From assembly GCA_017795025.1 (NCBI GenBank), contig CP051243.1:2237501-2301500 (forward strand): 64,000 bases of DNA. Direction: 5' to 3'. Shown here one piece after another: positions 13,066-61,169 of this stretch. Origin of the DNA: Flavobacteriales bacterium (GTDB lineage Bacteria; Bacteroidota; Bacteroidia; Flavobacteriales; Schleiferiaceae). Numbering within the stretch: the stretch's first letter is position 1; the number at the start of each line of letters is the position of its first letter. The translations under genes were made by a program, and so were the position numbers. A model generated the notes under the pieces. It worked only from the letters and a program-made list of their open reading frames with translations. It was not told the DNA's origin and did not search any database.

Positions 13066-13160
13066 TTGTGTCGCTCCTAGTCGATAATTGCTAAACCTTG
13101 TGCGAATTAGCCCTAACTCCCCAAACTAACATTTATCATACTTCCCGATTTTAGCTTTCG

Positions 13161-13168
13161 TATTTTTG
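13161..13168 (+). promoter_or_regulatory. -7 element for trhO
   Basis: TATTTTTG is a full TAnnTTTG match and ends 17 nt before the trhO ATG. A clear TTG -33 element is not seen. Confidence 0.5.
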
Positions 13169-13184: not shown

Positions 13185-14237
13185 ATGGATCCTAATGCCG
13201 GAAAAAAGGGCCTCATCAATCGCTTTAGTCGTGAGGAGCTGCAAGCCCGTTTGGAGGCCGAAGATTTTAAACGCATCACCGTTTCCTTTTACCGCTACGT
13301 AATTTTGGAAGATGCCCAAGCGATGCGCGACCAACTTTACCAAGAATGGTCGGAGCTTAATTGCCTGGGACGTATTTACGTGGCCCGCGAAGGCATTAAT
13401 GCCCAAATGAACGTGCCCGAGCATAACTGGGAGCGCTTTGTAAAAGAGGTGCATGCCAAGCCGCAGTTCAAAGACATTCCCTTTAAAATTGCGGTGGAAG
13501 ACGATGGTAAATCCTTCCTGAAATTGGTTATCAAAGTGCGAGAGCGCATCTTAGCCGATGGCCTGGAGGATGATTCCTACGATGTAACCAATGTAGGGCG
13601 TCACCTCGATGCCGATGAATGGAACCGCGCCATGGAAGAAGGTGCAGTGGTCGTAGATATGCGCAATCACTACGAAAGTGAAATTGGGCACTTCGAAAAT
13701 TCCATCTTACCCGAAGCCGAAACCTTCCGCGATGAACTGCCAGAAGTGCTGGAAAAACTCAAAGGTCAGGAAGACCAAAAAATCCTCCTCTACTGCACCG
13801 GTGGCATTCGCTGCGAAAAAACCTCGGCCTTCCTTAAACACCATGGCTTTAAGGATGTTAATCAATTACACGGGGGCATCATCGACTACGCCCGGCAGAT
13901 AAAAACCAAAGAGCTCCCCAATAAATTCCACGGTAAAAACTTTGTGTTCGATGAGCGCTTGGGCGAAGGGATTTCCAATGAAGTAATTTCCCACTGTCAC
14001 CAATGTGGCGAGCCTTGCGACACCCACGTAAACTGTGCGAATGTGGCTTGTAACCTGCTCTTTATTCAATGTCCTAATTGCGCAGCGAAATACGAGAAGT
14101 GCTGTTCGGAGGAATGTCAAAGTGTGGTACACCTCAGCCCCGAAGAACAGAAGGCCATTCGAAAAAACACCGAGCAAAAAAAGCGCTTCCATAGTCATCG
14201 ACATTGGGAAGAAGTGCACCCTCAGGCAAAAAACTGA
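13185..14237 (+). CDS. trhO: tRNA uridine(34) hydroxylase TrhO (rhodanese domain)
   Basis: The 350-residue product belongs to the YceA/TrhO family, which makes 5-hydroxyuridine at the tRNA wobble position using O2. An N-terminal acylphosphatase-like domain (about 30-120) precedes a rhodanese domain (about 140-240) with active-site Cys204 in [11 protein letters not shown] Cys-rich tail follows (about 271-311: [15 protein letters not shown]), likely a zinc or structural site typical of the family. It is cytoplasmic. Its stop codon overlaps the regulator site proposed for the hmgA promoter. Confidence 0.93.
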
Positions 14238-14277
14238 CAAATGTTCTTTTTCAGCTCTGCGACAAAATGAATATTTG
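14234..14277 (+). promoter_or_regulatory. Fnr-type site and -7 element upstream of hmgA
   Basis: The site CTGAC-AAAT-GTTC begins at 14234 and overlaps the trhO stop. The -7-like AATATTTG is at 14270-14277. The offset from the first C to the -7 element is 36 nt, the same as in front of ccoS, ccoI and the gene at 48881. The flanking bases are also alike at hmgA and ccoS (TCAGCT after the site, TTTGAAAC at the -7 element). The second half-site is imperfect. The ATG is 23 nt after the -7 element. Class II activation is inferred. Confidence 0.5.
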
Positions 14278-33395: not shown

Positions 33396-33482
33396 GGAGA
33401 GGTGCATGAGTGGCTGAAATGGCACGCCTGGAAAGCGTGTGTGCGGGAGACCGTACCGAGGGTTCGAATCCCTCTCTCTCCG
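33396..33482 (+). tRNA. tRNA-Ser (anticodon GGA)
   Basis: An 87-nt gene with a long variable arm, as expected for serine. The acceptor stem pairs GGAGAGG with TCTCTCC (one G-T pair), the anticodon stem pairs CACGC with GCGTG around loop CTGGAAA with anticodon GGA at 33430-33432, and the T arm is GAGGG-TTCGAAT-CCCTC. The discriminator base is G and CCA is not encoded. It decodes UCC and UCU. Confidence 0.96.
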
Positions 33483-44789: not shown

Positions 44790-44815
44790 AGCCTAAAAAA
44801 TGATTATGCTCATAT

Positions 44816-45153: not shown

Positions 45154-45672
45154 ATGGATAGTGTGAAGGCCGATTTAATCGAAAAATTAACTTGGCGCCG
45201 ACCCAAGGAGGAAATGCAAGCCCTTTGCGAACGGGAAGAATTTCGTCCTCATCTAAGGGCGGTATGCCTTAGCGATGACCTCAAACTAAATTGGAGGGCA
45301 GCCTGGATTTTAGGCAGCTTCCCCCAAGAGGACCTCGAGCAAATATTCCCCGATCCGGAGGTACTAATTGCCTGTTTAAACCGGCCCAGTAAGAAGGATG
45401 GATACTGGCGAGAAATCCTAAAGATCATCGCCCGCTTGCCCCTAAATGAAAATCAGGAGGGCTTGCTTTACGAAGCCGCTTTAAAACTTTGGGAAAATCT
45501 AGCTTTGGCCTCGGCAGTGCGCCTCCAAGCTTTGTATGCCTTAGCTCGAGTTGCCCGAAACTATCCCGAGCTTAAACAGGAAATCTTAGCCTACCAAGAT
45601 GCACATTATATGCAGGGCATTTCTCCGGGGATTAGCAATCAAGTTCAAAAACTATTTGCCCGCTTATCTTAA
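45154..45672 (+). CDS. Helical repeat (HEAT-like) protein of unknown function
   Basis: A 172-residue cytoplasmic protein made of paired helices (LRAVCLSDDLKLNWRAAWILGSF, YWREILKIIARLPL, LASAVRLQALYALARVARNYPELKQEIL). The repeated Trp/Ala/Leu pattern resembles HEAT repeats, but no named family was recognised. It converges on ccoI and overlaps its end by 9 nt. Confidence 0.65.
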   Translation: MDSVKADLIEKLTWRRPKEEMQALCEREEFRPHLRAVCLSDDLKLNWRAAWILGSFPQEDLEQIFPDPEVLIACLNRPSKKDGYWREILKIIARLPLNENQEGLLYEAALKLWENLALASAVRLQALYALARVARNYPELKQEILAYQDAHYMQGISPGISNQVQKLFARLS

Positions 45673-48012: not shown

Positions 48013-48034
48013 GGAAGTTTCTTTGGACATAGGA

Positions 48035-48078
48035 CAAAGATGTTGTACCCAATTTAGTTTGAAAATGACAATTATCAT
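48035..48078 (-). promoter_or_regulatory. Fnr-type site and -7 element for ccoI
   Basis: Read on the minus strand, ATGAT-AATT-GTCAT (48078-48065) is followed by CATCTTTG at 48042-48035. The offset is 36 nt, identical to ccoS, hmgA and the gene at 48881. The second ATG (48012) is 23 nt after the -7 element. Confidence 0.6.
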
Positions 48079-48089
48079 ATCTATCTTTG
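48059..48089 (+). promoter_or_regulatory. Promoter of the Fnr-like regulator, overlapped by an Fnr-type site
   Basis: TTG at 48059-48061, a 20-nt spacer and TATCTTTG at 48082-48089 form a near-consensus promoter. The dyad ATGAC-AATT-ATCAT (48065-48078) lies between the two elements. The arrangement would let the regulator repress itself while activating ccoI on the other strand. This is inference from geometry. Confidence 0.55.
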
Positions 48090-48118
48090 ATAGGCCAAAC
48101 ATTAAAACACCTTAGCTC

Positions 48119-48817
48119 TTGGACACCCCCAATCATTGTCAGTTCTGCGCTCAACATCCCGACAGTGCTTTCCATGGTTTAAACCGTGAAGGTCTGGAGG
48201 AAATTAGCCAGCTTAAAACCTGCGTAAGCTTTAAAAAAGGACAAGTCTTAATGCATGAAGGCGCTCGACCGCAGGGCGTTTACTGTTTGCACCGAGGCAA
48301 GGTGAAATTGTTCACTTTGGGCACAGAGGGAAAGGAACAAATTATTCGATTTGTAACCAAAGGTGATTTAATCGGTTATCGAAGCATTTTGAGTGATGAG
48401 CCTATTAGCGCCTCCGCAGAAGCTTTAGAAGATACCTTCGCCTGCTATATTCCAAAATCTTCGTTCTTCAAAGTGATTGAAGATAATCCCAAGTTTTCCT
48501 TAAACCTCTTGAAATTATCTTGTCATGAGCTTGGGGAAGCCGGTAAGATGATTACCAGTTTAGCTCAGAAAAACGTGAAGGAGCGTTTAGCGGAAATCCT
48601 ATTGATTTTAAACACCACCTTTGGGGTAGATGAGGAAGGTTATATCGACATTAATCTTACCCGCGAGGAAATTGCCAACATGGTGGGCACCGCAACCGAG
48701 TCGGTTATTCGTCTAATTTCCGAACTTCGTAAAGAGGGGTATATCCGCTCCAAAGGCAAGCGTATCGCACTGGAAGATCGTTCGGCCTTAAGGCAAATGG
48801 CCTCCGTTTTCGAATAA
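48119..48817 (+). CDS. Crp/Fnr-family transcriptional regulator
   Basis: A 232-residue regulator with a cyclic-nucleotide-binding-fold sensor (about 25-145) and a winged HTH (about 150-230; LTREEIANMVGTATESVIRLISEL). Cys7 and Cys10 (HCQFC) lie at the N-terminus and Cys109 is in FACYIPKSSF. That position aligns by pattern with FNR Cys122 (VCEIPFETL), so an iron-sulphur oxygen sensor is likely although the classical four-Cys set is not fully matched. The frame has no ATG before residue 45, so TTG at 48119 is the likely start and keeps the Cys pair. It is divergent from ccoI. Confidence 0.9.
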   Translation: MDTPNHCQFCAQHPDSAFHGLNREGLEEISQLKTCVSFKKGQVLMHEGARPQGVYCLHRGKVKLFTLGTEGKEQIIRFVTKGDLIGYRSILSDEPISASAEALEDTFACYIPKSSFFKVIEDNPKFSLNLLKLSCHELGEAGKMITSLAQKNVKERLAEILLILNTTFGVDEEGYIDINLTREEIANMVGTATESVIRLISELRKEGYIRSKGKRIALEDRSALRQMASVFE

Positions 48818-48861
48818 CTGATAAATATCATAGCCCCCTTTTTGCGGAGGTCATACTTTCG
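48818..48861 (+). promoter_or_regulatory. Fnr-type site and -7 element for the gene at 48881
   Basis: CTGAT-AAAT-ATCA starts at 48818, one base after the regulator stop codon. TACTTTCG at 48854-48861 is a one-mismatch -7 element. The offset is again 36 nt. A GTG start codon follows 20 nt after it. Confidence 0.55.
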
Positions 48862-48880
48862 TCTGCAAGAACTTAGAATT

Positions 48881-49321
48881 GTGGGCTTTTTAAACATACC
48901 CGATAAAATACGCGAAATCATTCCCTTTGAGGCCTCGGCCTTTGTGGTGGAAGAGATTACCCTTCAAAGTAGTTTCATTCCTTTTTATGGTGCCGGAGAG
49001 GTACTCTTTAAAAAGGGAGACCAAGCTTTGGGCTTTTATTGGGTTCTGAGCGGGGAAGCCGAAATCATTATTCCCGGTAAACGCTCCATCATTTTAAGTG
49101 CCGGTGCCATGGCTGGTTTAGACTCCTTTTTAGAAGGCGGCACCCTCCCCTTTGATGTGGTGAATCGCGGCCAGCATTTAAACTGTCTTTTTATTGATCG
49201 TCGCTGCTACAATAATATGCGAGAACACCACGAGTTTAATCGTTATATGAACTCCATGGTGATGAACTGCCTTAAAAGCTATCGCAATTTATTAGTTCCT
49301 GCTCCGCGCACCTATCTTTAG
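48881..49321 (+). CDS. Cyclic-nucleotide-binding-fold protein without DNA-binding domain
   Basis: The 146-residue product has the CNB beta-roll pattern (FIPFYGAGEVLFKKGDQALGFYWVLSGEAEIII, then SAGAMAGLDSFLEGG) and ends in a helical tail without a winged helix. The frame has no ATG before the middle of the domain. GTG at 48881 is chosen because it lies 20 nt after a -7 element with an Fnr-type site; TTG at 48842 would be upstream of that element. The frame is the same as the preceding regulator, separated by one TAA. It could be a modulator or antagonist of that regulator; function is unknown. Confidence 0.7.
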   Translation: MGFLNIPDKIREIIPFEASAFVVEEITLQSSFIPFYGAGEVLFKKGDQALGFYWVLSGEAEIIIPGKRSIILSAGAMAGLDSFLEGGTLPFDVVNRGQHLNCLFIDRRCYNNMREHHEFNRYMNSMVMNCLKSYRNLLVPAPRTYL

Positions 49322-49333
49322 ACTTCGCCTTAG

Positions 49334-49341
49334 TATATTTG
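49334..49341 (+). promoter_or_regulatory. -7 element for the FAD oxidoreductase gene
   Basis: TATATTTG matches TAnnTTTG and ends 20 nt before the ATG at 49361. Confidence 0.45.
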
Positions 49342-49360
49342 GCCGGATTCAAAATAAGCC

Positions 49361-50545
49361 ATGCAGAAGGTCGATGTACTGATTGTTGGAGCAGGCCCCG
49401 CCGGCAGCACCCTTTCCCACTTCTTACACAAGCTCAATATTGATCACCTTTTGATTGATAAGAAATCCTTTCCCCGGGATAAAATCTGTGGGGATGGTCT
49501 TACGGTAGATGTGCTGAATGTTCTAAAACGCATTAGCCCCGATTTACTCGAGAAGTTTAAACACGAAAATGAAATGCTGCCCAGTTGGGGATTTTGCTTT
49601 CATGGGCCAAAGGGGCAACAGCTGCGTTATGACTTTAAAAACGCTGGCTTTCCGATTGCTCCCTTTTTCACTTCGCGACGGATAGACCTTGACCACTTTT
49701 TAATCCGAGAGCTTCCCCAAAATGGTAGCGGTCGTTTTTGGCACGATACCGAACTCAAAGGACTGCGCCGAGAAGGAGAGGGTTTTATTGCAGAGCTTAA
49801 GCAAGTGGAAGGCAATCGAAACCTGCAATGTAAAGTGGTAATTGGGGCCGAAGGCGAAAAGCCTGTCGTAACCCGCTACCTGGGCTTGGAGCATTTTAGA
49901 GAAAAAGAAAACCTCTTGGCTGCGATTCGTATTTATTACAAAAATCTCCAAGGCTTTAATGAGGGAAATCACTTAGAGTTTTTCTTCGACAAAGACCTTA
50001 TTCCCGGCTACTTTTGGACCTTCCCCCTTACCAACAATGAGGCGAATACCGGACTCGGCATGTTAAGTACCGCTATCGCCGCTCAAAAAGTGAATCTCAA
50101 AAAAAGCTTTGAAGATATCATTCAAAACAACCCTTACTTAGCCCCACGTTTTGAGGGCGCCGAGGCCATCGAAAAACCGCAAGGATGGGGCTTACCCACC
50201 ATGACGCCCAAGCGAAAAATTGGCGGCGAAGGTTATGCCCTTATTGGCGACGCTGGAGGGATGATTGAAGCTTTTACCGGCAAAGGAATTGGACCGGGCA
50301 TGATGAGCGCCAGGATTGCTTCCGAGTATATTGAAACGGCTTTCCAAAAAAATCAGTTCGACTTTAGCGACTACCATAATCATATGTACCGCTATTATCG
50401 CAACGAAATTAAGAACACCTACCGTTTGCAAAATGGACTGCAAAATATTTGGGTTTTAAACAGCGTAATGAGCTTAGCCTCTTGGTCGCCGATCCAAAAA
50501 GCCGCCCGCGACAAAATGATTCGGGATTTCTTAAAATGGGTTTAG
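49361..50545 (+). CDS. Geranylgeranyl-reductase-family FAD-dependent oxidoreductase
   Basis: A 394-residue flavoprotein. The FAD dinucleotide loop is GAGPAG (10-15), followed by the GGR-family PRDKICGDG at 38-46 and the second FAD motif ALIGDAGGMIEAFTGKGIGPGMMS near 292-315. The family saturates prenyl chains or acts on similar lipids, and related Bacteroidota proteins are of unknown substrate. It is cytoplasmic or membrane-associated. A prenyl synthetase is elsewhere in the window (22603) but not linked. It is followed 36 nt later by the hydrolase-OsmC gene. Confidence 0.88.
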   Translation: MQKVDVLIVGAGPAGSTLSHFLHKLNIDHLLIDKKSFPRDKICGDGLTVDVLNVLKRISPDLLEKFKHENEMLPSWGFCFHGPKGQQLRYDFKNAGFPIAPFFTSRRIDLDHFLIRELPQNGSGRFWHDTELKGLRREGEGFIAELKQVEGNRNLQCKVVIGAEGEKPVVTRYLGLEHFREKENLLAAIRIYYKNLQGFNEGNHLEFFFDKDLIPGYFWTFPLTNNEANTGLGMLSTAIAAQKVNLKKSFEDIIQNNPYLAPRFEGAEAIEKPQGWGLPTMTPKRKIGGEGYALIGDAGGMIEAFTGKGIGPGMMSARIASEYIETAFQKNQFDFSDYHNHMYRYYRNEIKNTYRLQNGLQNIWVLNSVMSLASWSPIQKAARDKMIRDFLKWV

Positions 50546-50581
50546 GGAAAGATGTAACTTCCTCGCTTAAACCCTAAGATC

Positions 50582-51808
50582 ATGCGTAGCGAAAAAGTTA
50601 GTTTCCAAAATTCAGAAGGTTTAGAGCTCGCTGGAAATTTGCATTTAGCCCCCGGCTACCAACATGGCCCCACCGCTATTTTTGCCCACTGCTTTACCTG
50701 TGGCAAAGATTTAAAAGCGGCCCGCAACTTAGCCATTGCTTTAAACCAAAGGGGAATTAATGTTTTACGCTTCGACTTTTCCGGTTTGGGGCAATCCGAA
50801 GGCGATTTCGCCGACACCAATTTTAGTAGCAACTTAGAAGACCTATTTGCTGCTGCTGAGTTTTTACGGCAACGTAATTGTGCGCCCGAAATACTAATTG
50901 GCCATTCCTTGGGGGGAGCGGCAGTATTAATGGCCGCCGACCGACTGCCCGAAGTAAAAGCCGTTGCGACCATAGGAGCTCCGGCAGAGGCACATCATGT
51001 AAAGCACCTCTTTGAAGAACAACTGGAAACTATAAAGGGAGAAGGTTCGGCGAAGGTGAACATTGGGGGACGACCCTTTACCTTAAAGCGCGACTTTATT
51101 AAAGACCTCAATCGTCATGAAGTGGGCGAGCGCATTAGTAAGTGGCGTAATAGAGCCTTGTTGGTTTTACATTCTCCCCAGGATCAGATTGTGGGCATTC
51201 AGAATGCCAAGGAAATCTATGAGGCCGGTCACCACCCCAAAAGCTTCGTATCCTTAGATGGTGCCGATCACCTTTTGAGTAAAGAAAGTGATTCCCGTTA
51301 TGTGGGCGAACTGGTCGCCGCTTGGGCCGAGCGCTATTTAGAGTCGGGTAAGGATAGTGTGCCCAGACTAAAAAGTGATAGCCTGGTTTTAGCGCAAACA
51401 GACGACGAGGCCTTCCTCACTCGCATTAAAGCTGGGGAGTTTTTCTTAGTAGCCGATGAACCTGAGTCAGTGGGTGGTCAAAATCGAGGACCCAGCCCCT
51501 ATGAACTTTTAGGCGCCTCCTTGGCCGCTTGCACCAGCATGACCTTGCGGATGTATGCCGACCGTAAAGAATGGCCTTTACAAACGGTAAAGGTGCACGT
51601 GGATTATGAAGCGGATTATGTCTCTGACCTGCAAAATTGTGAGAATGAAAAAAGGCGCTTAGGTCGCTTTATCCGTAAGATTGAAATCTTGGGTGACCTC
51701 GATGAAAAACAAGAAAAACGCCTGATGCAAATTGCGGACAAATGTCCCGTTCATCGGACCCTAAGCGAAGGGGTGGAGATTCACACGAAAAAAACGTCAG
51801 GGTCTTAA
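50582..51808 (+). CDS. Alpha/beta hydrolase fused to OsmC-like domain
   Basis: A 408-residue two-domain protein. The hydrolase (about 1-255) has Ser109 in GHSLGG, Asp201 and His230 as the likely triad. The OsmC-like part (about 265-405) has the two redox Cys, Cys317 (LAACTSMT) and Cys388 (DKCPVHRTL). OsmC/Ohr proteins reduce organic hydroperoxides with paired Cys. The fusion recurs in several phyla, suggesting that an ester and a peroxide or thioester are handled together; the substrate is unknown. Confidence 0.92.
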   Translation: MRSEKVSFQNSEGLELAGNLHLAPGYQHGPTAIFAHCFTCGKDLKAARNLAIALNQRGINVLRFDFSGLGQSEGDFADTNFSSNLEDLFAAAEFLRQRNCAPEILIGHSLGGAAVLMAADRLPEVKAVATIGAPAEAHHVKHLFEEQLETIKGEGSAKVNIGGRPFTLKRDFIKDLNRHEVGERISKWRNRALLVLHSPQDQIVGIQNAKEIYEAGHHPKSFVSLDGADHLLSKESDSRYVGELVAAWAERYLESGKDSVPRLKSDSLVLAQTDDEAFLTRIKAGEFFLVADEPESVGGQNRGPSPYELLGASLAACTSMTLRMYADRKEWPLQTVKVHVDYEADYVSDLQNCENEKRRLGRFIRKIEILGDLDEKQEKRLMQIADKCPVHRTLSEGVEIHTKKTSGS

Positions 51809-51838
51809 CCTTGAATTAATATCGTCTTAATAAATTTT

Positions 51839-51846
51839 TAATTTTG
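51839..51846 (+). promoter_or_regulatory. -7 element for the HAD-like gene
   Basis: TAATTTTG ends 20 nt before the ATG at 51866. Confidence 0.45.
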
Positions 51847-51865
51847 TGCTCCTCCAATTCTGAGC

Positions 51866-52528
51866 ATGAAACGATTGACCATCTTCCCAATCAACACTGT
51901 GATTCGCTTTTCAGAATCCGATGTTCGGCAATTGTTACTGCAAACCCTTTCCAGTCATCTCAAAATAGAAATCGACTCCGATCCGGCCCCCGAGCTTAGT
52001 AATCACCAAGCAATTTTGGAGCATCTCTGCGAAGTAAATGGAATCGTCCTCCCCGATGAAGCCGCTCAGGAACAAATTCGTAAGGACCTAAAAAAAGCGG
52101 TTAAAAAGCTCTACTTAGCTGATGAAGATGCCTTTGAGGTGCGACCCGGCGTGCAAAGTTTATTCAATCATTTTGAGAAGGAAAAAGGCTGGAAATACGG
52201 GATTATTAGCGACTATTGGAATGATACTACGCAGTTCATCATGCAGTCTTGTGGCGTGTCCAGTAAAAACAAGTTAACCGTTTGTGCCGAAAGCGCAAAT
52301 TCTGCGAAAGCGCAAATCGACATCTTAATTGATCGTCGGAGTAAAGGTAGTCAGGTAAAGGTTCATTTAGTATGCCTTAGCAAAGACTGCTCCTTCCAAA
52401 AAGAGTCCTTCAAGCTCATCCGCCCCAAGGCCTCCAACAAGGAAAGTAACTATTACGTTTACCCTAAATTCTCCGAGCTCTTTAAAACGAAGAAGCGAAA
52501 ATCGAAGAAAGGGAAAAGCAGTTCTTAA
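51866..52528 (+). CDS. HAD-like protein with degenerate catalytic motif
   Basis: A 220-residue protein whose order of elements resembles a haloacid-dehalogenase hydrolase: an N-terminal strand, a helical cap (about 40-95), RPGVQSLFNHF, then the strand GIISDYWND that fits motif II. The usual motif I DxDGT is replaced by FPINTVIRFS, so the nucleophilic Asp is missing. The C-terminus is very basic (KTKKRKSKKGKSSS) and may bind nucleic acid or a membrane. It could be a pseudoenzyme; the HAD call itself is tentative. Confidence 0.55.
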   Translation: MKRLTIFPINTVIRFSESDVRQLLLQTLSSHLKIEIDSDPAPELSNHQAILEHLCEVNGIVLPDEAAQEQIRKDLKKAVKKLYLADEDAFEVRPGVQSLFNHFEKEKGWKYGIISDYWNDTTQFIMQSCGVSSKNKLTVCAESANSAKAQIDILIDRRSKGSQVKVHLVCLSKDCSFQKESFKLIRPKASNKESNYYVYPKFSELFKTKKRKSKKGKSSS

Positions 52529-52546
52529 GAACCTTCTGTTTGCGAT

Positions 52547-52554
52547 TAGGTTTG
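52547..52554 (+). promoter_or_regulatory. -7 element for the aldehyde dehydrogenase gene
   Basis: TAGGTTTG ends 25 nt before the ATG at 52579. Confidence 0.45.
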
Positions 52555-52578
52555 CTAACTTAGAGCAAGCTTAATAAG

Positions 52579-53991
52579 ATGTCGCAAATTACCTTACACC
52601 GTTCCCAGTTTACTAGTGAAGAGATTAGCCATCTCCTGGAGGACCAAAAGGATTTCTTTAAAATGGGAAAGACCTTTGAGCTCCGCTTTCGGAAGGAAAT
52701 TCTGCAACAGCTTAAGCAATTGATAAAGCAGTATGAACCGGAGATTTTAAAGGCGCTCGAACAGGATTTAGGAAAGCCGGCCTTTGAAGCTTATGCCTCC
52801 GAAATAGGCTTTGTTTACGAGGACCTCAGCCATACTTTAAATCATTTAAAATCTTGGGCTCGACCCAAAAGAGTGAGCAGCCCCATTAGCAGCTGGCCTT
52901 CTCGTTCCTATGTTATTCCGCAACCCAAGGGATGCTGTTTAATTATTGCCCCTTGGAATTACCCCTTCATGCTTTTGCTTTCACCCCTCATTGCCGCAAT
53001 TGCCGCTGGTAATACCGCAGTACTCAAACCCTCCGAACAAAGTCCCCACACCTCCAACCTCGTGAGCCGAATTTTAACCGAGCACTTTGATCAAGAGCTT
53101 ATTTGCGTATTGCAGGGCGAAGGACATGTATTAATCCCTCAACTGCTCGAAGCCCATCGATTTGACCATATATTTTTTACCGGCAGTACCGAAGTAGGCC
53201 GCAGCATCGCCCTTCAAGCGGCCCAAAAATTGAGTCCGGTTACGCTGGAACTCGGTGGTAAAAGTCCGGCCATAGTCGACGAAACGGCTAAGCTAAATGT
53301 GGCCGCGAGGCGCATCGCTTTTGGCAAATGGCTCAATGCCGGACAAACTTGTGTGGCTCCCGATTACCTACTGGTTCATCGCAGTGTGCACGAGGCCTTT
53401 TTAAAGGAGCTTAAAACTTGTATAGAGGAGTTTTACCCCGAAGGGGCCTTACAGAGTGAGAGCTATGCCAGCATCATCCACGATAAACACTTGCAGCGCA
53501 TGCAGGAGCACTTAAAGTCGATGGAAATTTATTTTGGTGGAAAGGTAGACTTGAAAAACCGAAGGATGGAGCCTACTCTGGTGCTCGAACCGGCGGGAGA
53601 TAGCTCTTTAATGCAAGAGGAAATTTTTGGTCCAATTCTACCCATCATTGCTTATGATTTTAATGAAGAAGCGCGTGAAATCATAGAAGCGCGACCCAAA
53701 CCTTTGGCCTTTTATCTCTTTAGCTCAGATAAGAAGAATCAAGCCTATTGGGAAAAGCTTCCTTATGGCGGTGGAGCGATAAACAATGCGATTATTCATT
53801 TAGCCAATCCCAATTTACCCTTCGGCGGCATTGGAAATAGCGGCATTGGTGCCTATCACGGTAAATTTGGCTTTGATACTTTTTCGCACCCAAAGGCCTT
53901 AATGAAATCGGGAACCTGGCTGGACCTTAAAATGAAATATCCGCCCTACAGCCCTTCGGCCTACAAGATTATTAAACGACTATTCTCCTAA
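52579..53991 (+). CDS. Aldehyde dehydrogenase family protein
   Basis: A 470-residue NAD(P)-dependent oxidoreductase of the class 3 (fatty-aldehyde) type: IIAPWNYPFMLLLSPLIAAIAAGNTAVLKPSE, Glu224 in LELGGKSP, and the catalytic Cys258 in NAGQTCVAPDYLL. The length and the Asn in PWNYP are typical. A hydrophobic C-terminal anchor is not obvious. It likely oxidises medium or long-chain aldehydes. The RND-like exporter gene starts one base after its stop, so the two are almost certainly one operon. Confidence 0.94.
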   Translation: MSQITLHRSQFTSEEISHLLEDQKDFFKMGKTFELRFRKEILQQLKQLIKQYEPEILKALEQDLGKPAFEAYASEIGFVYEDLSHTLNHLKSWARPKRVSSPISSWPSRSYVIPQPKGCCLIIAPWNYPFMLLLSPLIAAIAAGNTAVLKPSEQSPHTSNLVSRILTEHFDQELICVLQGEGHVLIPQLLEAHRFDHIFFTGSTEVGRSIALQAAQKLSPVTLELGGKSPAIVDETAKLNVAARRIAFGKWLNAGQTCVAPDYLLVHRSVHEAFLKELKTCIEEFYPEGALQSESYASIIHDKHLQRMQEHLKSMEIYFGGKVDLKNRRMEPTLVLEPAGDSSLMQEEIFGPILPIIAYDFNEEAREIIEARPKPLAFYLFSSDKKNQAYWEKLPYGGGAINNAIIHLANPNLPFGGIGNSGIGAYHGKFGFDTFSHPKALMKSGTWLDLKMKYPPYSPSAYKIIKRLFS

Positions 53992-53992
53992 G

Positions 53993-56194
53993 ATGAGGTG
54001 GCTATTTGCCTGGCGCAAAGTTCTATTAATCATCGTTCTCATTAGCGGAGTGCTGCTCTTCCCAGGATTGCAGCAAGCCTTAAAAATCGATAATAGCTTA
54101 CGATCTTGGTTTATTAAGGGCGACCCTGCCCTAGAGAACTACTATAAACTACAAGACCACTTTGGCAACGACGAGCTTATTATCCTGGTCCTATTTGGGG
54201 AAGAGTCGGTTCTTGAGCCTAAATCCCGAAATCAGGTTAAGCAATTAATAAGCGCTTTAGAGGCGGATAGCGCCATTGCCTATGTTTTGCATCCTTTTAA
54301 TTGGGAGCTCCCGGATTTAGCTAGTGGTGGACTTCTAAGCCAAGCCTTTATTCCTCCAACAAGCATGGAAGCCGAGGCGGTAATTGCCAAGAACGAATTC
54401 CTCAAACAACAGTTCTTCGCCCAGGAATTAAGGGCCACCAGACTCTATCTAAAATTAAAGAACAGCGAAAACTTTGAAACGGAAAGGGCTGGCATCATTC
54501 GAAATATCTATTCCATCACCAATCAACACTGGCCCAAAAACCAAAAAGCCTTTGGGGGCTTAGGGGTGATTTATGAAGCGCTTAATCAGCTTTCGGCCCG
54601 GGATTTTGGCACTTTCCTAGGACTGGGCTACCTCTTGATGTTTAGCCTGATAAGCTTGCTTTACCGACACTGGAAATTCACGCTTTACGCGATGGGTAGC
54701 GTGGCTTTTGCCGCCTATTTCACCATTGCCATTTATGGCAGCTTTGGCTTTCGCCTGAATTTATTGAGCACCCTCATTCCCACCATCATCATATTATTGG
54801 GAATAATGGATGTGATGCACATTCTCAATGAGTTTCGAAAGCGGGAGTCCTCCAGTACCCAGCAAGAAGCTGCTCTGGGAGCCCTAAAACGAATTTGGAA
54901 ACCCTGCCTTTTTACCAGCATTAGTACTATGGCCGGCTTTCTTTCCTTAATGATCAGCCCAGTTGCTATTTTGGCTCAGTTCGGATTATTTTCAGCCTTG
55001 GGCATAGGTCTCGCCCTTTTCTTTTCTTACCTCTTAGGCGTTTTTATTTTACCCCAAGCGCCAAGCATTCCAACCGAAGATAAGAGCACTAAATTGCTTG
55101 GAAACTTACAGGATTGGGTGGTTCATCATCCCAGGCCCATTTTGAGTTTTCTGATTGTAGTGTTGATTGCCGGAGCGATATCCATTCCCCAGTTAAAAGT
55201 AGATACCGACTCCATCGGTTACCTTCCCGAGGACCATGTAGTTCGCACCGATAGCGACACGATTGAAGCCTTATTCGGCCCTTACATGCCCCTAGATTAT
55301 TTGATCGAAAGCCCCCAGCAAGATTTAAATGAAGCGACTCTCCAACAGGAGCTCTATTTCCTGGATCAAGACTTAAGTGCGCTGCCGGCTATTGGCTCCA
55401 TGACTGGCTATCACGATTTAATGGCCGCCTTGCTTAAGGGGAGAGATGTTGCCTTAGATGAAAATTGGGAAAATGATCCCTTATTGGATTTTGAATTGGC
55501 GAATATCGAAGCTTTGAACCCCGAGTTAAAGGCAGCTTTTTTGGCCCAAGACGGACACTTAGGACGTTTTTACCTCAGCGGTGAGTTGATTAGCGCTGGG
55601 CAGTTAAAAGCTACTTTAAGTGAAGTAGACTCCATCGCGAATGTCCAGTTAGGTCCCAATATTAAAATCAAAGCGGCCGGCTACCAGAGCCTCTATGCAG
55701 AAATCGTAAACTACATTACAGAAAGTCAGGTGAAAAGCTTCTTACTGGCCGGAATTATGATATTCCTCTTGCTTTGGTTATTCCTGCGTGATTTAAGGTT
55801 AAGCCTGATTAGTCTTATCCCTAACTTCTTCCCCATCATTGTGCTTTTAAGCACCATGGTTTGGTTTGATATTGCCTTAGATACCGCCACCGCTTCTATT
55901 GCCAGTATCGTTTTAAGCTTCTCCATCGACGATACCATGCATTTTATTTGGCACTACCGCAAAAGCCGTCATTTGGGACAAGGCCCGGCCGAAGCCCGTA
56001 AAAAAACAATGACCCACGTAGGGCGGGCCATTGTATTTACCTCATTGGTATTATTTGCCGGCTATGCGCTGATGTGGTTTGGGAACCTCAAAACCGTAAT
56101 TTATTTTGGCACCTTAACCGCATCATCAATCATAGCGGCACTTCTTAGTCAGCTTTTTTTCTTTCCCTTATTATTGGCAAAGTTCGACACCTAA
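53993..56194 (+). CDS. RND/MMPL-family transporter (second)
   Basis: A 733-residue inner-membrane protein with the two-fold RND plan: transmembrane helix near 10-28, periplasmic loop, helices about 205-355, a second loop, helices about 580-730. The signature VLSFSIDDTMHFIWHYRKS near 640-658 corresponds to [10 protein letters not shown] in the other exporter at 19316. The protein is 67 residues shorter than that paralogue and lacks its acidic tail. Coupling to an aldehyde dehydrogenase hints at lipid or hydrophobic-compound handling. Confidence 0.86.
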   Translation: MRWLFAWRKVLLIIVLISGVLLFPGLQQALKIDNSLRSWFIKGDPALENYYKLQDHFGNDELIILVLFGEESVLEPKSRNQVKQLISALEADSAIAYVLHPFNWELPDLASGGLLSQAFIPPTSMEAEAVIAKNEFLKQQFFAQELRATRLYLKLKNSENFETERAGIIRNIYSITNQHWPKNQKAFGGLGVIYEALNQLSARDFGTFLGLGYLLMFSLISLLYRHWKFTLYAMGSVAFAAYFTIAIYGSFGFRLNLLSTLIPTIIILLGIMDVMHILNEFRKRESSSTQQEAALGALKRIWKPCLFTSISTMAGFLSLMISPVAILAQFGLFSALGIGLALFFSYLLGVFILPQAPSIPTEDKSTKLLGNLQDWVVHHPRPILSFLIVVLIAGAISIPQLKVDTDSIGYLPEDHVVRTDSDTIEALFGPYMPLDYLIESPQQDLNEATLQQELYFLDQDLSALPAIGSMTGYHDLMAALLKGRDVALDENWENDPLLDFELANIEALNPELKAAFLAQDGHLGRFYLSGELISAGQLKATLSEVDSIANVQLGPNIKIKAAGYQSLYAEIVNYITESQVKSFLLAGIMIFLLLWLFLRDLRLSLISLIPNFFPIIVLLSTMVWFDIALDTATASIASIVLSFSIDDTMHFIWHYRKSRHLGQGPAEARKKTMTHVGRAIVFTSLVLFAGYALMWFGNLKTVIYFGTLTASSIIAALLSQLFFFPLLLAKFDT

Positions 56195-56196
56195 TT

Positions 56197-56562
56197 TCAG
56201 TTCAGAAATTTACGATTTGGTCCATCCGCTTCAATTGAATTCATGAAATTCAATACAGTATCCTGATAGGGAGAATTGAAAAAGAATTCAATGTAATAGC
56301 GCTGTTCATCTTCGGCTTGGACAGCCAATAGATATTTAGGCACCATCTCCCCGTTGGAAGGACTGAGATAGGAATCTTGCTCTAAGAACCGATAACCTTT
56401 ATGGATACTCAAATTCTCAGGTTTATAAACTTCGCCATTAGTTCCTTTGGCTAAATGGTCTTCCATCACCTTTAAGGGCTCTTCGAAGCCGGCATCTGCT
56501 AAATTGCTTTTAGCCTTTTGCCAAGAGGAATAGGGATCTTTGTTGGGACTGCTTAACTCCAT
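56197..56562 (-). CDS. Hypothetical protein downstream of dps
   Basis: A 121-residue soluble protein (MELSSPNKDPYSSWQKAKSN, then FEEPLKVMEDHLAKG and YIEFFFNSPYQDTVLNFMNSI). It is not recognised. The ATG at 56562 lies 4 nt after the dps stop and is preferred to an upstream Met inside dps. Cotranscription with dps suggests a stress-related role, by context only. It ends 2 nt from the end of the convergent exporter gene. Confidence 0.6.
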   Translation of the reverse strand: MELSSPNKDPYSSWQKAKSNLADAGFEEPLKVMEDHLAKGTNGEVYKPENLSIHKGYRFLEQDSYLSPSNGEMVPKYLLAVQAEDEQRYYIEFFFNSPYQDTVLNFMNSIEADGPNRKFLN

Positions 56563-56566
56563 ACTC

Positions 56567-57079
56567 TTATTTTTCGTTGAAGCTTCTCCACATCCAAGCC
56601 GCTTTTTCATGCACTTTCAATCTTTCGGTGAGCATATCAATACTCACTTCATCTTCATATTGATCGGCTACGGCCAATGCTTCACGCATGTTGCGAATGA
56701 TATTCTCGTGGGAAGCCAACAAATCGGCGGCCATCTCTAGGGCCGAAATTCCGGCTTTCGCCTCTTTGATTTTACTTAAACTGCTGTATGCTTCAAAGCT
56801 ACCGGGGGCATCAAAACCTAAGGCTCTAATGCGCTCTGCTATTTCGTCGATGGCCCCAAACAAATCTTCATACTGAGACTCGGTTAAGTCATGCATACTT
56901 TTAAATAAGGGACCACGTACATTCCAGTGATAATTATGCGTTTTGAGCATCAGCAAGTAGTGATCTGCCAAGATTTCGTTCAAGTGGTCCACAATGCTGG
57001 CGCGTCCGCTTTCGGATAAACCAGTTTGTAAAGGAACTTGATGTTGATCAGTAGGTAAATCTAATGCTGTCGTACTCAT
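56567..57079 (-). CDS. dps: Dps-family DNA-protecting ferritin-like protein
   Basis: A 170-residue dodecameric ferritin-like protein that oxidises Fe(II) with H2O2 and protects DNA. The ferroxidase residues are His51 (NYHWNVRGP), His63, Glu67 in place of Asp, Asp78 and Glu82, with spacing identical to E. coli Dps. The N-terminus is short with few Lys, so DNA binding by it is uncertain. The upstream region (57080-57192) is very AT-rich and contains repeated ATCTGA segments that may be regulator sites. Confidence 0.94.
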   Translation of the reverse strand: MSTTALDLPTDQHQVPLQTGLSESGRASIVDHLNEILADHYLLMLKTHNYHWNVRGPLFKSMHDLTESQYEDLFGAIDEIAERIRALGFDAPGSFEAYSSLSKIKEAKAGISALEMAADLLASHENIIRNMREALAVADQYEDEVSIDMLTERLKVHEKAAWMWRSFNEK

Positions 57080-57192
57080 ATTGTAATTTCTAATTTTTGG
57101 TTACACTTAAATAACGCAATCAAATTTCAGATTGTTCATTAAATATCAGATTTCTAAATATTTATATATTATCAGTTCAATAAATTATTTAA

Positions 57193-57468
57193 ATGAAAAG
57201 CATTAAGTTCAGGATAGGCGGTTTAGTTCAAGGGGTTTACTTTAGGAAATATACCGAGGCCAAAGCGCAGGAACTTGGATTAAATGGTTGGGTACGTAAT
57301 CGCCTTGATGGCTCGGTAGAGGTGCTTGCTCAGGGTTCGGAGCAAAATTTAAAGGCTCTAAAAGAATGGCTGTGGCAGGGCTCCCCCGCAGCGCAGGTGG
57401 GCAGCGTAGAAAGCGAAACCATAGATGCCGAGGCCCTAGAAGGCTTCGAGGTATTGCGCACGGAGTAG
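57193..57468 (+). CDS. acyP: Acylphosphatase
   Basis: A 91-residue enzyme hydrolysing acyl phosphates. The phosphate loop GLVQGVYFRKY carries the catalytic Arg18, and Asn36 is in GWVRNRLDGSVE. The length and the C-terminal FEVL fit the family. It is divergent from dps with 113 nt between them. Confidence 0.95.
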   Translation: MKSIKFRIGGLVQGVYFRKYTEAKAQELGLNGWVRNRLDGSVEVLAQGSEQNLKALKEWLWQGSPAAQVGSVESETIDAEALEGFEVLRTE

Positions 57469-57515
57469 GCCAAGTCCTTATTTTTAAAAAACACCAATCT
57501 GTGAAAGGGTATTCG

Positions 57516-57523
57516 TAATTTTG
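57516..57523 (+). promoter_or_regulatory. -7 element abutting rbfA
   Basis: TAATTTTG ends 5 nt before the rbfA ATG. If used, the mRNA would be leaderless or nearly so. Confidence 0.42.
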
Positions 57524-57527
57524 CCAC

Positions 57528-57887
57528 ATGGATGGAAGTAGACTCGATAAATTAGAAAGACAGGTTCAGAAAGACCTCGCTGAAATTTTCCGTGAAATAG
57601 CGCAAGAGCATTTTAAGGGAATCCTACTTACGGTAACTCGAGTTCGCATAAGTCCCGACCTATCTATTGGTCGCATCAACCTAAGCTTATTTCCTGTAAA
57701 GGATAAGGATGTAGTGATGCAATGGGTGCGCGAGCACGGCAATCAAATAAAAGATCGCTTAGTGCGCAAAATGAAAGGGAGCTTACGCAAGATGCCCGAC
57801 TTCCACTTTTACCTTGATGAATCTATCGATGCCGAAGCGGAGATTGACCGCATCCTAAAACAAGGGGGCGAAAGTCCGATTAAGTAA
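57528..57887 (+). CDS. rbfA: Ribosome-binding factor A
   Basis: A 119-residue KH-like protein needed for 30S maturation. It shows the family pattern RLDKLERQVQKDLAEIF, LLTVTRVRISPDLSIGRINLSLFP, and RLVRKMKGSLRKMPDFHFYLDESID. The downstream ABC-permease gene starts directly at the base after its stop. Confidence 0.95.
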   Translation: MDGSRLDKLERQVQKDLAEIFREIAQEHFKGILLTVTRVRISPDLSIGRINLSLFPVKDKDVVMQWVREHGNQIKDRLVRKMKGSLRKMPDFHFYLDESIDAEAEIDRILKQGGESPIK

Positions 57888-59093
57888 TTGAATTTTAGCC
57901 GCTACATAGCGCGGCGCTACTTCTTTGCCAAAAGCAGTAGCAATGCGGTAAATATTATTACCGGCATATCCTTATTGGGAATTATCGTGGGCAGTGCGGC
58001 CCTCATTATTGTCCTTTCTGCTTTTAATGGTCTCGAAAATTTGGTGCGGGGTTTTTACGAAGATTTTGACCCCGATTTAAAAGTCCTTCCGGCAGAAGGG
58101 AAGTTTTTCGCTAGTGAAGGTCTGGATAGCAAATTGGAAAGCTTTGATTTCCTGCAAGCCTATAGCAAAGTTCTGGAAGAGAAGGCCCTCTTTAATTTTC
58201 GCGAAAAAGACTATATCGCCACGCTCAAAGGGGTGGATCTTCACTACCTAGAAATCAACAACCTGGAAGAGCACATTCCTTTTGGCGACTATTTCTTAGA
58301 TCAGGAATCGAAGGTACCTACCGCAGTCATAGGCGCTGGGGTCGCTTATTACTTGGGTTTCGGTCGTTCCGATTTCCAGGAGGGTGTGAATGTTTTTATC
58401 CCCAAAGACGTGGGTAAGGTAGGCACCGAGAGTTTTCAAAGCGACCGTTTGTATCCCATGGGGATCTTTTCTATCCAACCTGAATTTGATGAACAGTTCA
58501 TATTGTGTCGCCTCGATTTTAGTCAGGAATTACTCCATCGTGAGCGCCAATTAAGTGGCATTGAAATCGCTTTAAAAGAAGGGGAATCGATAGAAGACGC
58601 CAGGGAGTACATCCAAACAAGCTTGGGACCCGATTTCCGGGTTTTAAGTAGAGATGAATTACAAGCGGGCTTTTTAAAGGTAATGCGTACCGAAGGCCTA
58701 TTTACCTTCTTAATTTTTGCCCTCATCCTTAGCATTGCCACCTTCACTATTGCGGGCAGCCTCACCATGATTATGTTCGAAAAACGTCGCAATCTCTTCA
58801 CCCTTTGGTCCATGGGTACCGAAGTAAAAGACCTGCGTAAAATCATTTTGCAGCTGGGGCTGATTATTAGCTTCTCTGGAGGGCTGATTGGTATTTTCTT
58901 AGGAAGCCTTATTGTATTTGGGCAAGAGCACTTTCAGTGGATCTCGGTTGGCGAGGGCTATATTGTAGATGCCTATCCGGTAGCCTTAAAGCTGAAGGAC
59001 ATTTTCACGGTTGGCCTCACCGTATTCGTGCTGGGCTATTTAAGTGCTTGGCTTAGTGCGCGGCGTTTAAATCTTAAACTGCTGCAGTCCTAA
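57888..59093 (+). CDS. FtsX-like ABC transporter permease (LolC/LolE type)
   Basis: A 401-residue inner-membrane protein beginning at TTG directly after the rbfA stop. The layout is one transmembrane helix (about 20-42, NIITGISLLGIIVGSAALIIVLSAF), a large periplasmic domain (about 45-265) and three helices (about 270-295, 320-345, 365-390), as in LolC/LolE and MacB. NFSRYIARRYFFAK is a family-like start. It likely takes part in lipoprotein release with an ATPase encoded elsewhere. It ends directly next to the end of convergent dusB. Confidence 0.9.
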   Translation: MNFSRYIARRYFFAKSSSNAVNIITGISLLGIIVGSAALIIVLSAFNGLENLVRGFYEDFDPDLKVLPAEGKFFASEGLDSKLESFDFLQAYSKVLEEKALFNFREKDYIATLKGVDLHYLEINNLEEHIPFGDYFLDQESKVPTAVIGAGVAYYLGFGRSDFQEGVNVFIPKDVGKVGTESFQSDRLYPMGIFSIQPEFDEQFILCRLDFSQELLHRERQLSGIEIALKEGESIEDAREYIQTSLGPDFRVLSRDELQAGFLKVMRTEGLFTFLIFALILSIATFTIAGSLTMIMFEKRRNLFTLWSMGTEVKDLRKIILQLGLIISFSGGLIGIFLGSLIVFGQEHFQWISVGEGYIVDAYPVALKLKDIFTVGLTVFVLGYLSAWLSARRLNLKLLQS

Positions 59094-60095
59094 TTAATAA
59101 GGATAGGCCATTTCGAGGTCGGCAAACTGATGCAGGATCTCCTCTAAAACATCCAAAATTTCTTGAGGCTCATCGGAGGTAACCAACTTTTGGCGGTATT
59201 CTTTAAAATGAGGAATGCCCTTAAAGTAATTGGTGTAATGGCGGCGGGTTTCGTTAATACCCAAGCGGGTCCCTTTCCAGTCGAGGGCCATCTCGAAATG
59301 ACGTCGGCAGGCCACCACCCGCTCCTCTAAGGTGGGGGGAGCTAAGGTTTCCCCAGTGGCAAGAAAGTGCTTGATCTCTCTAAAAATCCAAGGGTAACCA
59401 ATCGAAGCGCGACCAATCATAATACCGTCCACCCCATAGGTGTTTTTCATTTCCAGGGCCTTCTGCGGACTGTCTACATCGCCATTGCCAAAAACGGGAA
59501 TATTCATGCGTGGGTTTTCCTTCACCGCACGAATTAAACTCCAATCGGCCTCGCCTTTATACATCTGCTTACGGGTCCGCCCATGAATTGAAATGGCTTT
59601 GATACCCACATCTTGTAAGCGCTCGGCTACTTCCACAATATATTTGGAGTTCTCATCCCAGCCCAAACGGGTTTTAACCGTCACGGGCTTATCAACTGCC
59701 TTAACGATTTCGGCAGTCATGCGCACCATTTTAGGAATGTCTAATAAAATCCCGGCACCAGCGCCTTTACAAGCCACCTTCTTAACCGGGCAGCCGTAGT
59801 TAATATCTACAATATCGGGATTGGCCTCCGCGGTAATGGCCGCAGCTTCTCGCATCGAACTGATTTCATCACCAAAAATTTGAATGCCCAAAGGACGCTC
59901 GTATTCAAAAAAATCGAGCTTTTGCACACTCTTGGCGGCATCGCGAATCAAGCCTTCCGAGGAAATAAACTCCGTGTACATCACATCGGCCCCTTGTTCC
60001 TTGCACAATGCCCGAAAGGGAGGATCACTCACATCTTCCATTGGCGCAAGGAGCAAAGGAAATGCTCCAACTTCTACCTCTCCAATTTTAACCAC
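59094..60095 (-). CDS. dusB: tRNA-dihydrouridine synthase DusB
   Basis: A 333-residue FMN enzyme reducing uridine to dihydrouridine in tRNA. It shows FPLLLAPMEDVSDPPFRALC, the catalytic Cys102 in YGCPVKK, KTRLGWDENSKYI and IMIGRASIGYPWIF. The GTG start at 60095 is chosen because it gives the standard N-terminus VKIGEVEVGAFPLLLAPMED and lies 23 nt after TACTTTTG. An ATG 16 codons upstream would begin beyond that element and overlap the divergent CPBP gene. Confidence 0.94.
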   Translation of the reverse strand: MVKIGEVEVGAFPLLLAPMEDVSDPPFRALCKEQGADVMYTEFISSEGLIRDAAKSVQKLDFFEYERPLGIQIFGDEISSMREAAAITAEANPDIVDINYGCPVKKVACKGAGAGILLDIPKMVRMTAEIVKAVDKPVTVKTRLGWDENSKYIVEVAERLQDVGIKAISIHGRTRKQMYKGEADWSLIRAVKENPRMNIPVFGNGDVDSPQKALEMKNTYGVDGIMIGRASIGYPWIFREIKHFLATGETLAPPTLEERVVACRRHFEMALDWKGTRLGINETRRHYTNYFKGIPHFKEYRQKLVTSDEPQEILDVLEEILHQFADLEMAYPY

Positions 60096-60117
60096 AAGAC
60101 GGATTTTATCAACTTTG

Positions 60118-60125
60118 CAAAAGTA
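60118..60125 (-). promoter_or_regulatory. -7 element for dusB
   Basis: TACTTTTG on the minus strand ends 23 nt before the GTG at 60095, supporting that start. Confidence 0.5.
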
Positions 60126-60141
60126 CAAAAACACTTTGCCC

Positions 60142-61053
60142 ATGCTAAAGGGTCAGTTTGCCGGTGAATCGATATTCGTGCAAATCCTCATTTTATTGAT
60201 TCTCATTTTAGTGGGGATGTTCTTCTTTACCGGCTTCTCCTTAGCCCTGGCCTCTATATTATATGAGGTTTCGGTGGCAGAGGCCTTGGACACCCTAAGT
60301 GAATTTCACCGTGGGGGAAGTCGGGAAGTTTTTAAACTCGTGCAAGGTTTTACTAGCCTCGGGACCTTTCTTTTTCCCGCTTTGGTCGGTGCTTACTTTT
60401 TTAGCAAGCAGCCTAGTGATCTATTAGGCAGTCAAAAATTTCCTAAGCCTGCGCTTTTTATTGTCATTTGCTTAATCGCGATGGCTTACAGCATGGGGGC
60501 CCTCAGTGATTTACTTTTCCGGTTTAGTAGCACCATTCCCTGGCCAGAGGCTTTTTTAGAAAGTTTTGAGGAAAGTCAGGAACTGATGCTTGGCACCTAC
60601 GAAAATATACTTCGTATAAGTGGACCAATAGACTTTGTGCAGGTCCTTATAATCATGGCCTTTATTCCGGCTTTAGCGGAGGAGTCCCTATTTCGTGGGC
60701 TGCTTCAGCCGCTCCTAGCACGACATATTAATCCGCATTTTGCCATTCTCTTAACCAGCCTAGCCTTCGCGCTTCTTCACAACCAACACCTGGCCTTCTT
60801 ATCCATTTTTGTGTTGGGCATTATTCTGGGTTATTTAAGGCATTGGACGCAAAGCATCTGGCCTTCCACCCTCTTGCACCTTTTTAATAATGCCAGTATT
60901 GTTATTCTGGTTTATGGTTTCGACTATGATTATCGGGCGGCCCTCGAAGCACAAAGCGGAGTCAATTGGTTTGAAACCGGCAGCTTGCTTGTCGTATTTG
61001 GGCTGAGCTTGTTCTTCTTTCGCCGCTTAAGCCTTAAACAAGTAATGGATTAA
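60142..61053 (+). CDS. CPBP-family intramembrane glutamic endopeptidase
   Basis: A 303-residue multi-pass protein with the ABI/CAAX-protease motifs. E180-E181-SLF-R185 is motif 1, FALLHN near 208-213 is motif 2, and HLFNNAS near 247-253 is motif 3. Family members include eukaryotic Rce1-like proteases and bacterial immunity or anchoring proteins; the substrate is unknown. The ATG at 60142 removes a long upstream extension that runs antisense through dusB. It is divergent from dusB with 46 nt between start codons. Confidence 0.9.
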   Translation: MLKGQFAGESIFVQILILLILILVGMFFFTGFSLALASILYEVSVAEALDTLSEFHRGGSREVFKLVQGFTSLGTFLFPALVGAYFFSKQPSDLLGSQKFPKPALFIVICLIAMAYSMGALSDLLFRFSSTIPWPEAFLESFEESQELMLGTYENILRISGPIDFVQVLIIMAFIPALAEESLFRGLLQPLLARHINPHFAILLTSLAFALLHNQHLAFLSIFVLGIILGYLRHWTQSIWPSTLLHLFNNASIVILVYGFDYDYRAALEAQSGVNWFETGSLLVVFGLSLFFFRRLSLKQVMD

Positions 61054-61102
61054 TTCTAAATAAGACCCTGTTTTTCAGGCAATACCCTCCTTTCTGATAA
61101 AG

Positions 61103-61146
61103 CTGACAAATGTCATTTTATCAGCTTCAGCATGCCGATACATTTG
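61103..61146 (+). promoter_or_regulatory. Fnr-type site and -7 element of the cbb3 operon
   Basis: CTGAC-AAAT-GTCA starts at 61103; its core TGACA-AA-TGTCA is a perfect palindrome, with an outer CTGATAAA/TTTATCAG pair (61094-61124). TACATTTG is at 61139-61146, 36 nt after the first C. There is no TTG at -33. With a start of transcription about 5 nt downstream the site is centred near -41, the class II activator position. Confidence 0.68.
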
Positions 61147-61169
61147 AAACTCTAATTAAAGGGACCATA

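Follow-up and report, generated by a model that had tools for sequence, protein, structure and literature searches.

In a 64-kb window of the genome of a Flavobacteriales bacterium (the whole stretch analysed, C1:2237501-2301500 of a 3.44-Mb single-contig genome), predicted sites TGAYN4RTCA for a Crp/Fnr-family regulator stand at one fixed distance from the -7 octamer TAnnTTTG, among others in front of the cbb3-oxidase genes ccoS and ccoI. This offset is real and far beyond chance. The promoters are probably of class II and governed by an FNR-type regulator of Bacteroidota, for which the product of the gene at 48119-48817 of the window is the likeliest candidate. We base this reading on peaks of the fixed distance in the own genome, in orthologous promoters and in 198 genomes of the phylum, and on Flavobacterium psychrophilum, a flavobacterium with mapped transcription starts, for which the accessible part of PMC9723704 places TAnnTTTG at -12 to -5 and describes induction of cbb3 and haem-enzyme genes under oxygen limitation. 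The 48119 protein is proposed as the regulator because its gene lies between its putative targets and because it matches FNR with the CX2C motif and the last ligand cysteine aligned; a low-oxygen regulon is suggested by hemN being among the five profile matches with E<1e-4, all of them training members of the profile. The -7 box of the Bacteroidota polymerase differs from the -10 box of Escherichia coli, and the placement of FNR-type activators on it is undescribed in the literature searched; that search, in which subscription papers were mostly not covered and some terms were narrow, returned no FNR-type regulon with this geometry in Bacteroidota. A geometry this exact and countable would make low-oxygen regulons of Bacteroidota readable from sequence, and the results point to a shared, readable low-oxygen switch across this bacterium and many relatives.

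A fixed distance between site and octamer

We use "gap" for the number of bases between the 12-nucleotide (nt) site and the 8-nt octamer; the 36 nt given by an earlier sequence-only reading of this DNA equal a gap of 23. The site was scored on the eight positions of TGAYN4RTCA and the octamer on its six consensus positions. That reading had named four sites at one distance from the -7 element, and direct reading bears out their positions, with 23 nt to the octamer in each case. On the plus strand, the ccoS site TGACAAATGTCA (61104-61115) is followed by the octamer TACATTTG (61139-61146), a predicted +1 at 61151 by the spacing in the accessible part of PMC9723704, and the ATG at 61170 of ccoS (FixS, PF03597, 61170-61334), with ccoN next. 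The ccoI site TGATAATTGTCA (48066-48077, minus strand) lies between ccoI and the regulator gene, and its octamer CATCTTTG is found at 48035-48042 on the same strand. Immediately 3′ of the regulator's stop codon, the site TGATAAATATCA (48819-48830) and the octamer TACTTTCG (48854-48861) precede, all on the plus strand, a gene at 48881-49321 with a GTG start, encoding a 146-residue protein with a cyclic-nucleotide-binding fold and no helix-turn-helix (HTH) domain, as judged from a domain search and a structure model. The fourth site, TGACAAATGTTC (14235-14246, plus strand), is weak, agreeing at six of eight positions, and stands with its octamer AATATTTG (14270-14277) before hmgA (ATG 14300). 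Of the four octamers, three deviate from consensus at one of its six positions, and three of the four sites share the inner spacer AAAT, as had been noted.

In the window, TGAYN4RTCA occurs nine times compared with 2.6 expected and a maximum of six among 100 shuffles. Across the own genome, the pattern TGAYN4RTCA-N{8,38}-TANNTTTG gave 11 matches, five at gap 23, two at gap 24 and one each at gaps 12, 18, 22 and 32. With the first octamer base left free (NANNTTTG), the same range of gaps (8-38) returned 33 rows, 31 of them unique once two duplicates, arising from a stretch repeated near the contig ends, were removed. Seven of these had gap 23, and the next commonest gaps, 10 and 30, had three each; with a mean of 0.8 over the other 30 gaps, the Poisson probability of at least seven at gap 23 is 2 in 100,000. 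The enrichment on which the earlier proposal had been staked was thus found in the own genome, and phylum-wide as well: in 198 genomes including the own, gap 23 gave 330 exact matches in 84 genomes, and gap 18, the single control gap, gave 45 in 39 genomes. By group, the counts for gap 23 and gap 18 were 5 and 1 in the own genome, 176 and 9 in 20 genomes of the same order, and 91 and 7 in 28 of the same class, an excess of about 20-fold in the order and 13-fold in the class, falling to twofold outside the class.

A further count covered 768 kb in 80 named loci that surround homologues of the regulator (Owenweeksia and Cryomorphaceae assemblies are the closest), in which exact sites combined with exact octamers were scored at gaps of 3 to 47. 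Gaps 23 and 45 occurred ten times each, gap 22 six times and gap 24 three times, and no other gap had more than four matches. Orthologous promoters were compared with the requirement of at least seven of eight site and at least five of six octamer positions, together 12 of 14. Of 25 relatives' loci, 21 have gap 23 and three gap 24 in the ccoS promoter upstream of ccoN; of 26 loci, 20 have gap 23 and one gap 22 in the ccoI promoter, divergent from the regulator gene; and of 26, 14 have gap 23 behind the regulator gene, namely every one of the 12 that carry the HTH-less gene, together with L056 and L062, where a full-length paralogue lies downstream of the regulator instead. Other gaps average 0.63, 0.45 and 0.26 loci, respectively; all loci being related, none of these are independent counts. 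Excluded were five of 30 ccoN loci (L115 and L119 with partial genes, L121 with another oxidase, L117 and L118 as distant) and four of 30 regulator loci (L068-L071, distant). An origin of the shared offset in chance or base composition, as might be argued from hmgA, which alone would not stand out, is hardly credible and is ruled out by the gap-23 peaks in the own genome, the orthologous promoters, the named loci and the 198 genomes measured against gap 18.

Promoter geometry and gene-specific octamers

If the F. psychrophilum placement of the octamer at -12 to -5 is carried over, the site centre falls at -41.5 and transcription would begin at the fifth base past the octamer. The class II geometry so predicted is well supported and agrees with the centre near -41 proposed from the sequence alone, given the fixed gap in the own genome, orthologous promoters, named loci and phylum. 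In E. coli, class II promoters of FNR and CRP likewise have their site centred at -41.5 with the same spacing, and they resemble the promoters described here in the regulator family, the TGA...TCA dyad and the distance from the site centre to the T of the -10/-7 box. The promoters of this bacterium and its relatives differ from them in the TAnnTTTG core, in conserved gene-specific defects of the box, in a second site 22 bp upstream that is frequent in relatives, and in a shorter half-site that lacks the outer TT of TTGAT.

Among 42 collected promoters, 38 align without any gap. The bases TGA, TCA, A-11, T-8, T-7 and G-5 are invariant because the selection criteria demanded them; the T following TCA is invariant too, though it was not demanded. 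The expected absence of TTG at -33 mostly stands: TTG starts at -33 in three of the 38 aligned promoters and between -35 and -31 in eight. The peak at gap 45 reflects a second site exactly 22 bp upstream, with a predicted centre at -63.5. This site-to-site distance occurs in 16 pairs in the 80 named loci and in 12 pairs in the relatives' regulator and cco loci, and the next highest count is two in both sets. Ten ccoN loci, none of the own genus, carry the second site. In this species, the ccoS site forms the centre of a near-symmetrical 31-nt palindrome (61094-61124), which was not seen in the promoters of the genus relatives compared.

The octamers deviate from consensus in a gene-specific way. 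T-12 is replaced in all 12 ccoI promoters of the aligned set, including the one in the window, and T-6 in all 12 promoters of the HTH-less gene, again including that of the window; intact octamers belong to nine ccoS promoters, four promoters of a small RNA candidate described below and one hemN promoter. Among 21 ccoI orthologue matches with gap 22 or 23, T-12 is missing in 20 and A-11 in one. Some ccoS octamers beyond the closest relatives also deviate (L104, L108, L110 and L113). We infer that such fixed defects may tune the dependence on the activator.

The start codon was said to follow the octamer after 20-24 nt, which holds for three genes and fails for ccoI (45664-48030, minus strand; HMA, E1-E2 ATPase and hydrolase domains in Pfam), whose conserved ATG at 48030 comes after only 4 nt. 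Its A coincides with the predicted +1. The 12 nearest loci have their ccoI start codon (ten ATG, two GTG) 4 nt (ten loci) or 5 nt (two loci) after the octamer, that is at the predicted +1 or one base beyond; among more distant ones this spacing ranges from 4 to 20 nt. The ccoI mRNA is therefore predicted to be leaderless. An in-frame ATG at 48012 was considered as an alternative start and rejected, as it is not conserved and the relatives align from 48030.

The probable regulator and its putative target genes

A profile built from the 38 aligned promoters found 13 places in the own genome at E<=10. The five best are the RNA candidate, ccoS, ccoI, the HTH-less gene and hemN, and the sixth is a transporter promoter at 909883 (E 0.002). 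Weaker matches include sites before sdhA-like, hemA-like and Mrp-like genes and, in the window, the candidate site TGAGCATAATCA (44801-44812, minus strand; E 0.39), with gap 23 to the octamer CACCTTTG, before a YceI-like gene; these four names come from reading the sequence. A single palindromic site, TGACAATTGTCA (C1:2306362-2306424, outside the window), lies between hemN, for which it has gap 23, and a divergent hemJ-like gene, for which it has gap 12; a hemN-type promoter with gap 23 is also present in genome G019.

The hmgA promoter is absent from the 13 profile matches, and the proposed junction of low-oxygen respiration with tyrosine breakdown is not secure; the link to hmgA is the weakest piece of the picture. 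In relatives, 11 of 30 hmgA loci qualify, with gaps 22 (three), 23 (three) and 24 (five), and the sites of the own genus are, with one exception, too weak to count. We therefore do not place hmgA on a par with the other genes of the fixed-distance set. Directly before hmgA lies a gene that we take, from its sequence, to be trhO, an O2-dependent tRNA hydroxylase. It is preceded by the site TAACATTTATCA (13127-13138, plus strand) and, at gap 22, the octamer TATTTTTG (13161-13168), with the ATG at 13185. Where trhO was found, ten of 13 loci have the site, at gaps 22 (six), 24 (two) and 23 (two); one miss, L136, was aligned without its start. The link to tyrosine breakdown is further weakened because the trhO site persists in three (G017, G018 and G030) of the four genomes examined that have no regulator match at E<=0.001, the fourth being G029. 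These loose gaps and the trhO sites in genomes without a regulator match would be explained if two Crp/Fnr proteins shared one motif, the 48119 regulator running cco, hemN and the RNA and a paralogue with looser spacing running the O2-using enzymes hmgA and trhO; two paralogues are encoded at C1:68794 and C1:2821730. We regard this as only a little less probable than its opposite, since the motif is identical for both gene sets, the own-genus hmgA promoters keep gap 23, and a diverged regulator may have been overlooked in small genomes.

The regulator favoured here (48119-48817, plus strand) has a cyclic-nucleotide-binding-like domain and a Crp-type HTH (cNMP_binding and HTH_Crp_2), according to Pfam, alignments and a structure match. 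It matches FNR of Aliivibrio fischeri, a [4Fe-4S] oxygen sensor (5e44, 5cvr), with E of about 1e-25 and resembles it in fold, CX2C and the position of the C-terminal ligand: C109 aligns with the last ligand of FNR and CX2C with two of its first three. Across 42 sequences, C7 and C109 never vary, and conservation of C10 and C56 is at least 90%. E. coli FNR binds its cluster through C20, C23, C29 and C122; in the regulator not all four positions hold cysteine, the third being Ser16, and a conserved C56 is present instead. The E and R of the FNR recognition helix are kept, and Ile197 occupies the position of Ser212 of E. coli FNR. We therefore call the regulator FNR-type rather than FNR, as oxygen sensing by the known FNR cluster is not assured with Ser16 as third ligand.

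The missing third cysteine would fit a regulator that senses nitric oxide, haem or another signal, like HcpR or DNR, and haem- and nitric oxide-responsive members of the family in Bacteroidota are described in the accessible parts of PMC13370916 (HcpR) and PMC1274295. We consider this rather unlikely: the targets are the cbb3 oxidase and hemN rather than hcp, the conserved C7, C10, C56 and C109 in the 42 homologues suit a cluster or thiol sensor, and hypoxia induces these gene types in F. psychrophilum, as far as the accessible part of that study goes. Besides Ser16, several observations weigh against an FNR-type regulator acting at gap 23. The regulator model, with a predicted local distance difference test (pLDDT) score of 85, matches CRP-type structures as well as FNR, and the own genome encodes further Crp/Fnr paralogues. 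In the 149 genomes outside the class, gap 23 exceeds gap 18 only by 58 to 28; the 80 named loci show a further peak at gap 22, with six exact matches against ten at gap 23, and L033, a match with gap 23, is not followed by any gene.

The sequence-only reading had the ccoI site overlapping the regulator's own promoter, and this arrangement is conserved in the flanks of the nearest loci. The regulator's octamer TATCTTTG (48082-48089, plus strand) begins 4 nt after the ccoI site, and the octamer abuts that site in the 11 other nearest loci, exact in ten and with one miss in one. As a dimer bound at the ccoI site would cover this promoter, the regulator likely represses its own expression.

The HTH-less protein shares 27-76% identity with its relatives and diverges fast, whereas its promoter is kept (homologues L043-L053 and L225-L228). 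Its model shows a cyclic-nucleotide-binding fold ending in a long helix, and its alignment with the regulator extends as far as the beginning of this final helix. That it forms mixed dimers with the regulator is a guess.

We thus envisage that a dimer of the 48119 protein would bind TGAYN4RTCA centred at -41.5 and contact RNA polymerase reading TAnnTTTG at -12 to -5. Such a contact would need 23 nt between site and octamer, with gaps of 22 and 24 presumably tolerated at some genes. At low oxygen, the regulator would switch on ccoS, ccoI, hemN, the HTH-less gene and the small RNA, and through the ccoI site abutting its own promoter it would keep its own expression down.

A candidate small RNA beside typA

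The best profile score of the own genome, though that of a training member, belongs to an exact site and exact octamer with gap 23 at C1:1749932, outside the window. No long frame lies behind this promoter, and typA runs towards it. We propose a candidate small RNA at C1:1749932-1750070 (L034/L152) on the strength of the promoter site and its conservation. The promoter and the first ~20 nt of the predicted transcript are conserved in six of seven genomes of the genus, all six of which retain typA and a DUF1801-like neighbour. With predicted lengths of 100-134 nt, the RNAs have an unpaired 5′ end in four of six folds, and in all six genomes a 3′ hairpin of varying sequence keeps its pairing and is followed by a U-run. 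The candidate matched no Rfam family at gathering score. A search of 79 genomes gave many weak matches, of which 11 loci were opened. One (L187) is the RNA of genus genome G003; by eye, L189, L192, L197, L208 and L210 are ccoS-type, L194 hmgA-type and L195, the G019 locus, hemN-type promoters. Judging from the opened loci, the RNA is likely absent outside the genus.

One 10-mer complementary to the 5′ end, AAGAACTACT, was scanned against the own genome and has 11 matches, one being the RNA itself. Three of the ten others have a sense start codon no more than 15 nt away, that of a purK-like, a nitroreductase-like and a MORN-like gene; L315 and L318, whose matches follow a possible TTG or GTG start by 15 nt, were not counted. 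Start-codon pairing is suggestive only, and this thin evidence leaves room for a transcript that does not act by base-pairing, be it antisense read-through into the typA terminator or a short-peptide mRNA. In several of the six genomes, short frames (MLFLVFFWNEKA and similar) do open within the 3′ hairpin and extend beyond the U-run, and their recurrence makes a peptide product possible. We nevertheless find a transcript of that kind improbable, since the conserved part is the promoter and the first 20 nt, the short frames fall in DNA conserved around the typA terminator, and the hairpin keeps its pairing despite sequence change before the U-run.

As a small RNA, the candidate would resemble FnrS, the FNR-activated small RNA of enterobacteria, in its FNR-type class II site and putative terminator hairpin; it differs in having no shown sequence relation to FnrS, another genomic place, no Rfam match and a distribution over one genus only. 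A Crp/Fnr-family regulator and an RNA also meet in Bacteroidota stress control in HcpR and SnoA of Bacteroides. There, according to the accessible part of PMC13370916, SnoA is found opposite the hcp promoter, and HcpR does not determine its level, whereas the present candidate is located elsewhere and has its own class II site.

Taken as one, these features could form a Bacteroidia-wide TAnnTTTG grammar with a site at -41.5 and an optional one at -63.5, a joint proposal that we make tentatively and rate as possible rather than probable. Conserved gene-specific octamer defects would set how strictly each gene needs the activator, the genus-specific low-oxygen RNA would act via its 5′ end on start-codon regions, the HTH-less protein would tune the regulator, perhaps through mixed dimers, and the regulator might hold an iron-sulphur cluster involving CX2C, C56 and C109. 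The small RNA expected at low oxygen, the oxidase-assembly gene predicted to be leaderless, the putative HTH-less partner and the unusual regulator cysteines offer concrete objects for tests.

Two minor observations concern the DNA itself. A tRNA gene at 33396-33482 is the sole Rfam match in the window at gathering score. At the ends of contig C1, two pattern matches recur at a distance of 3,383,583 bases and the final 200 bases are identical to bases 55352-55551, and bases 1-400 match the shifted place at just 199 of 400 positions; the contig likely carries an untrimmed end overlap, though not a clean one.

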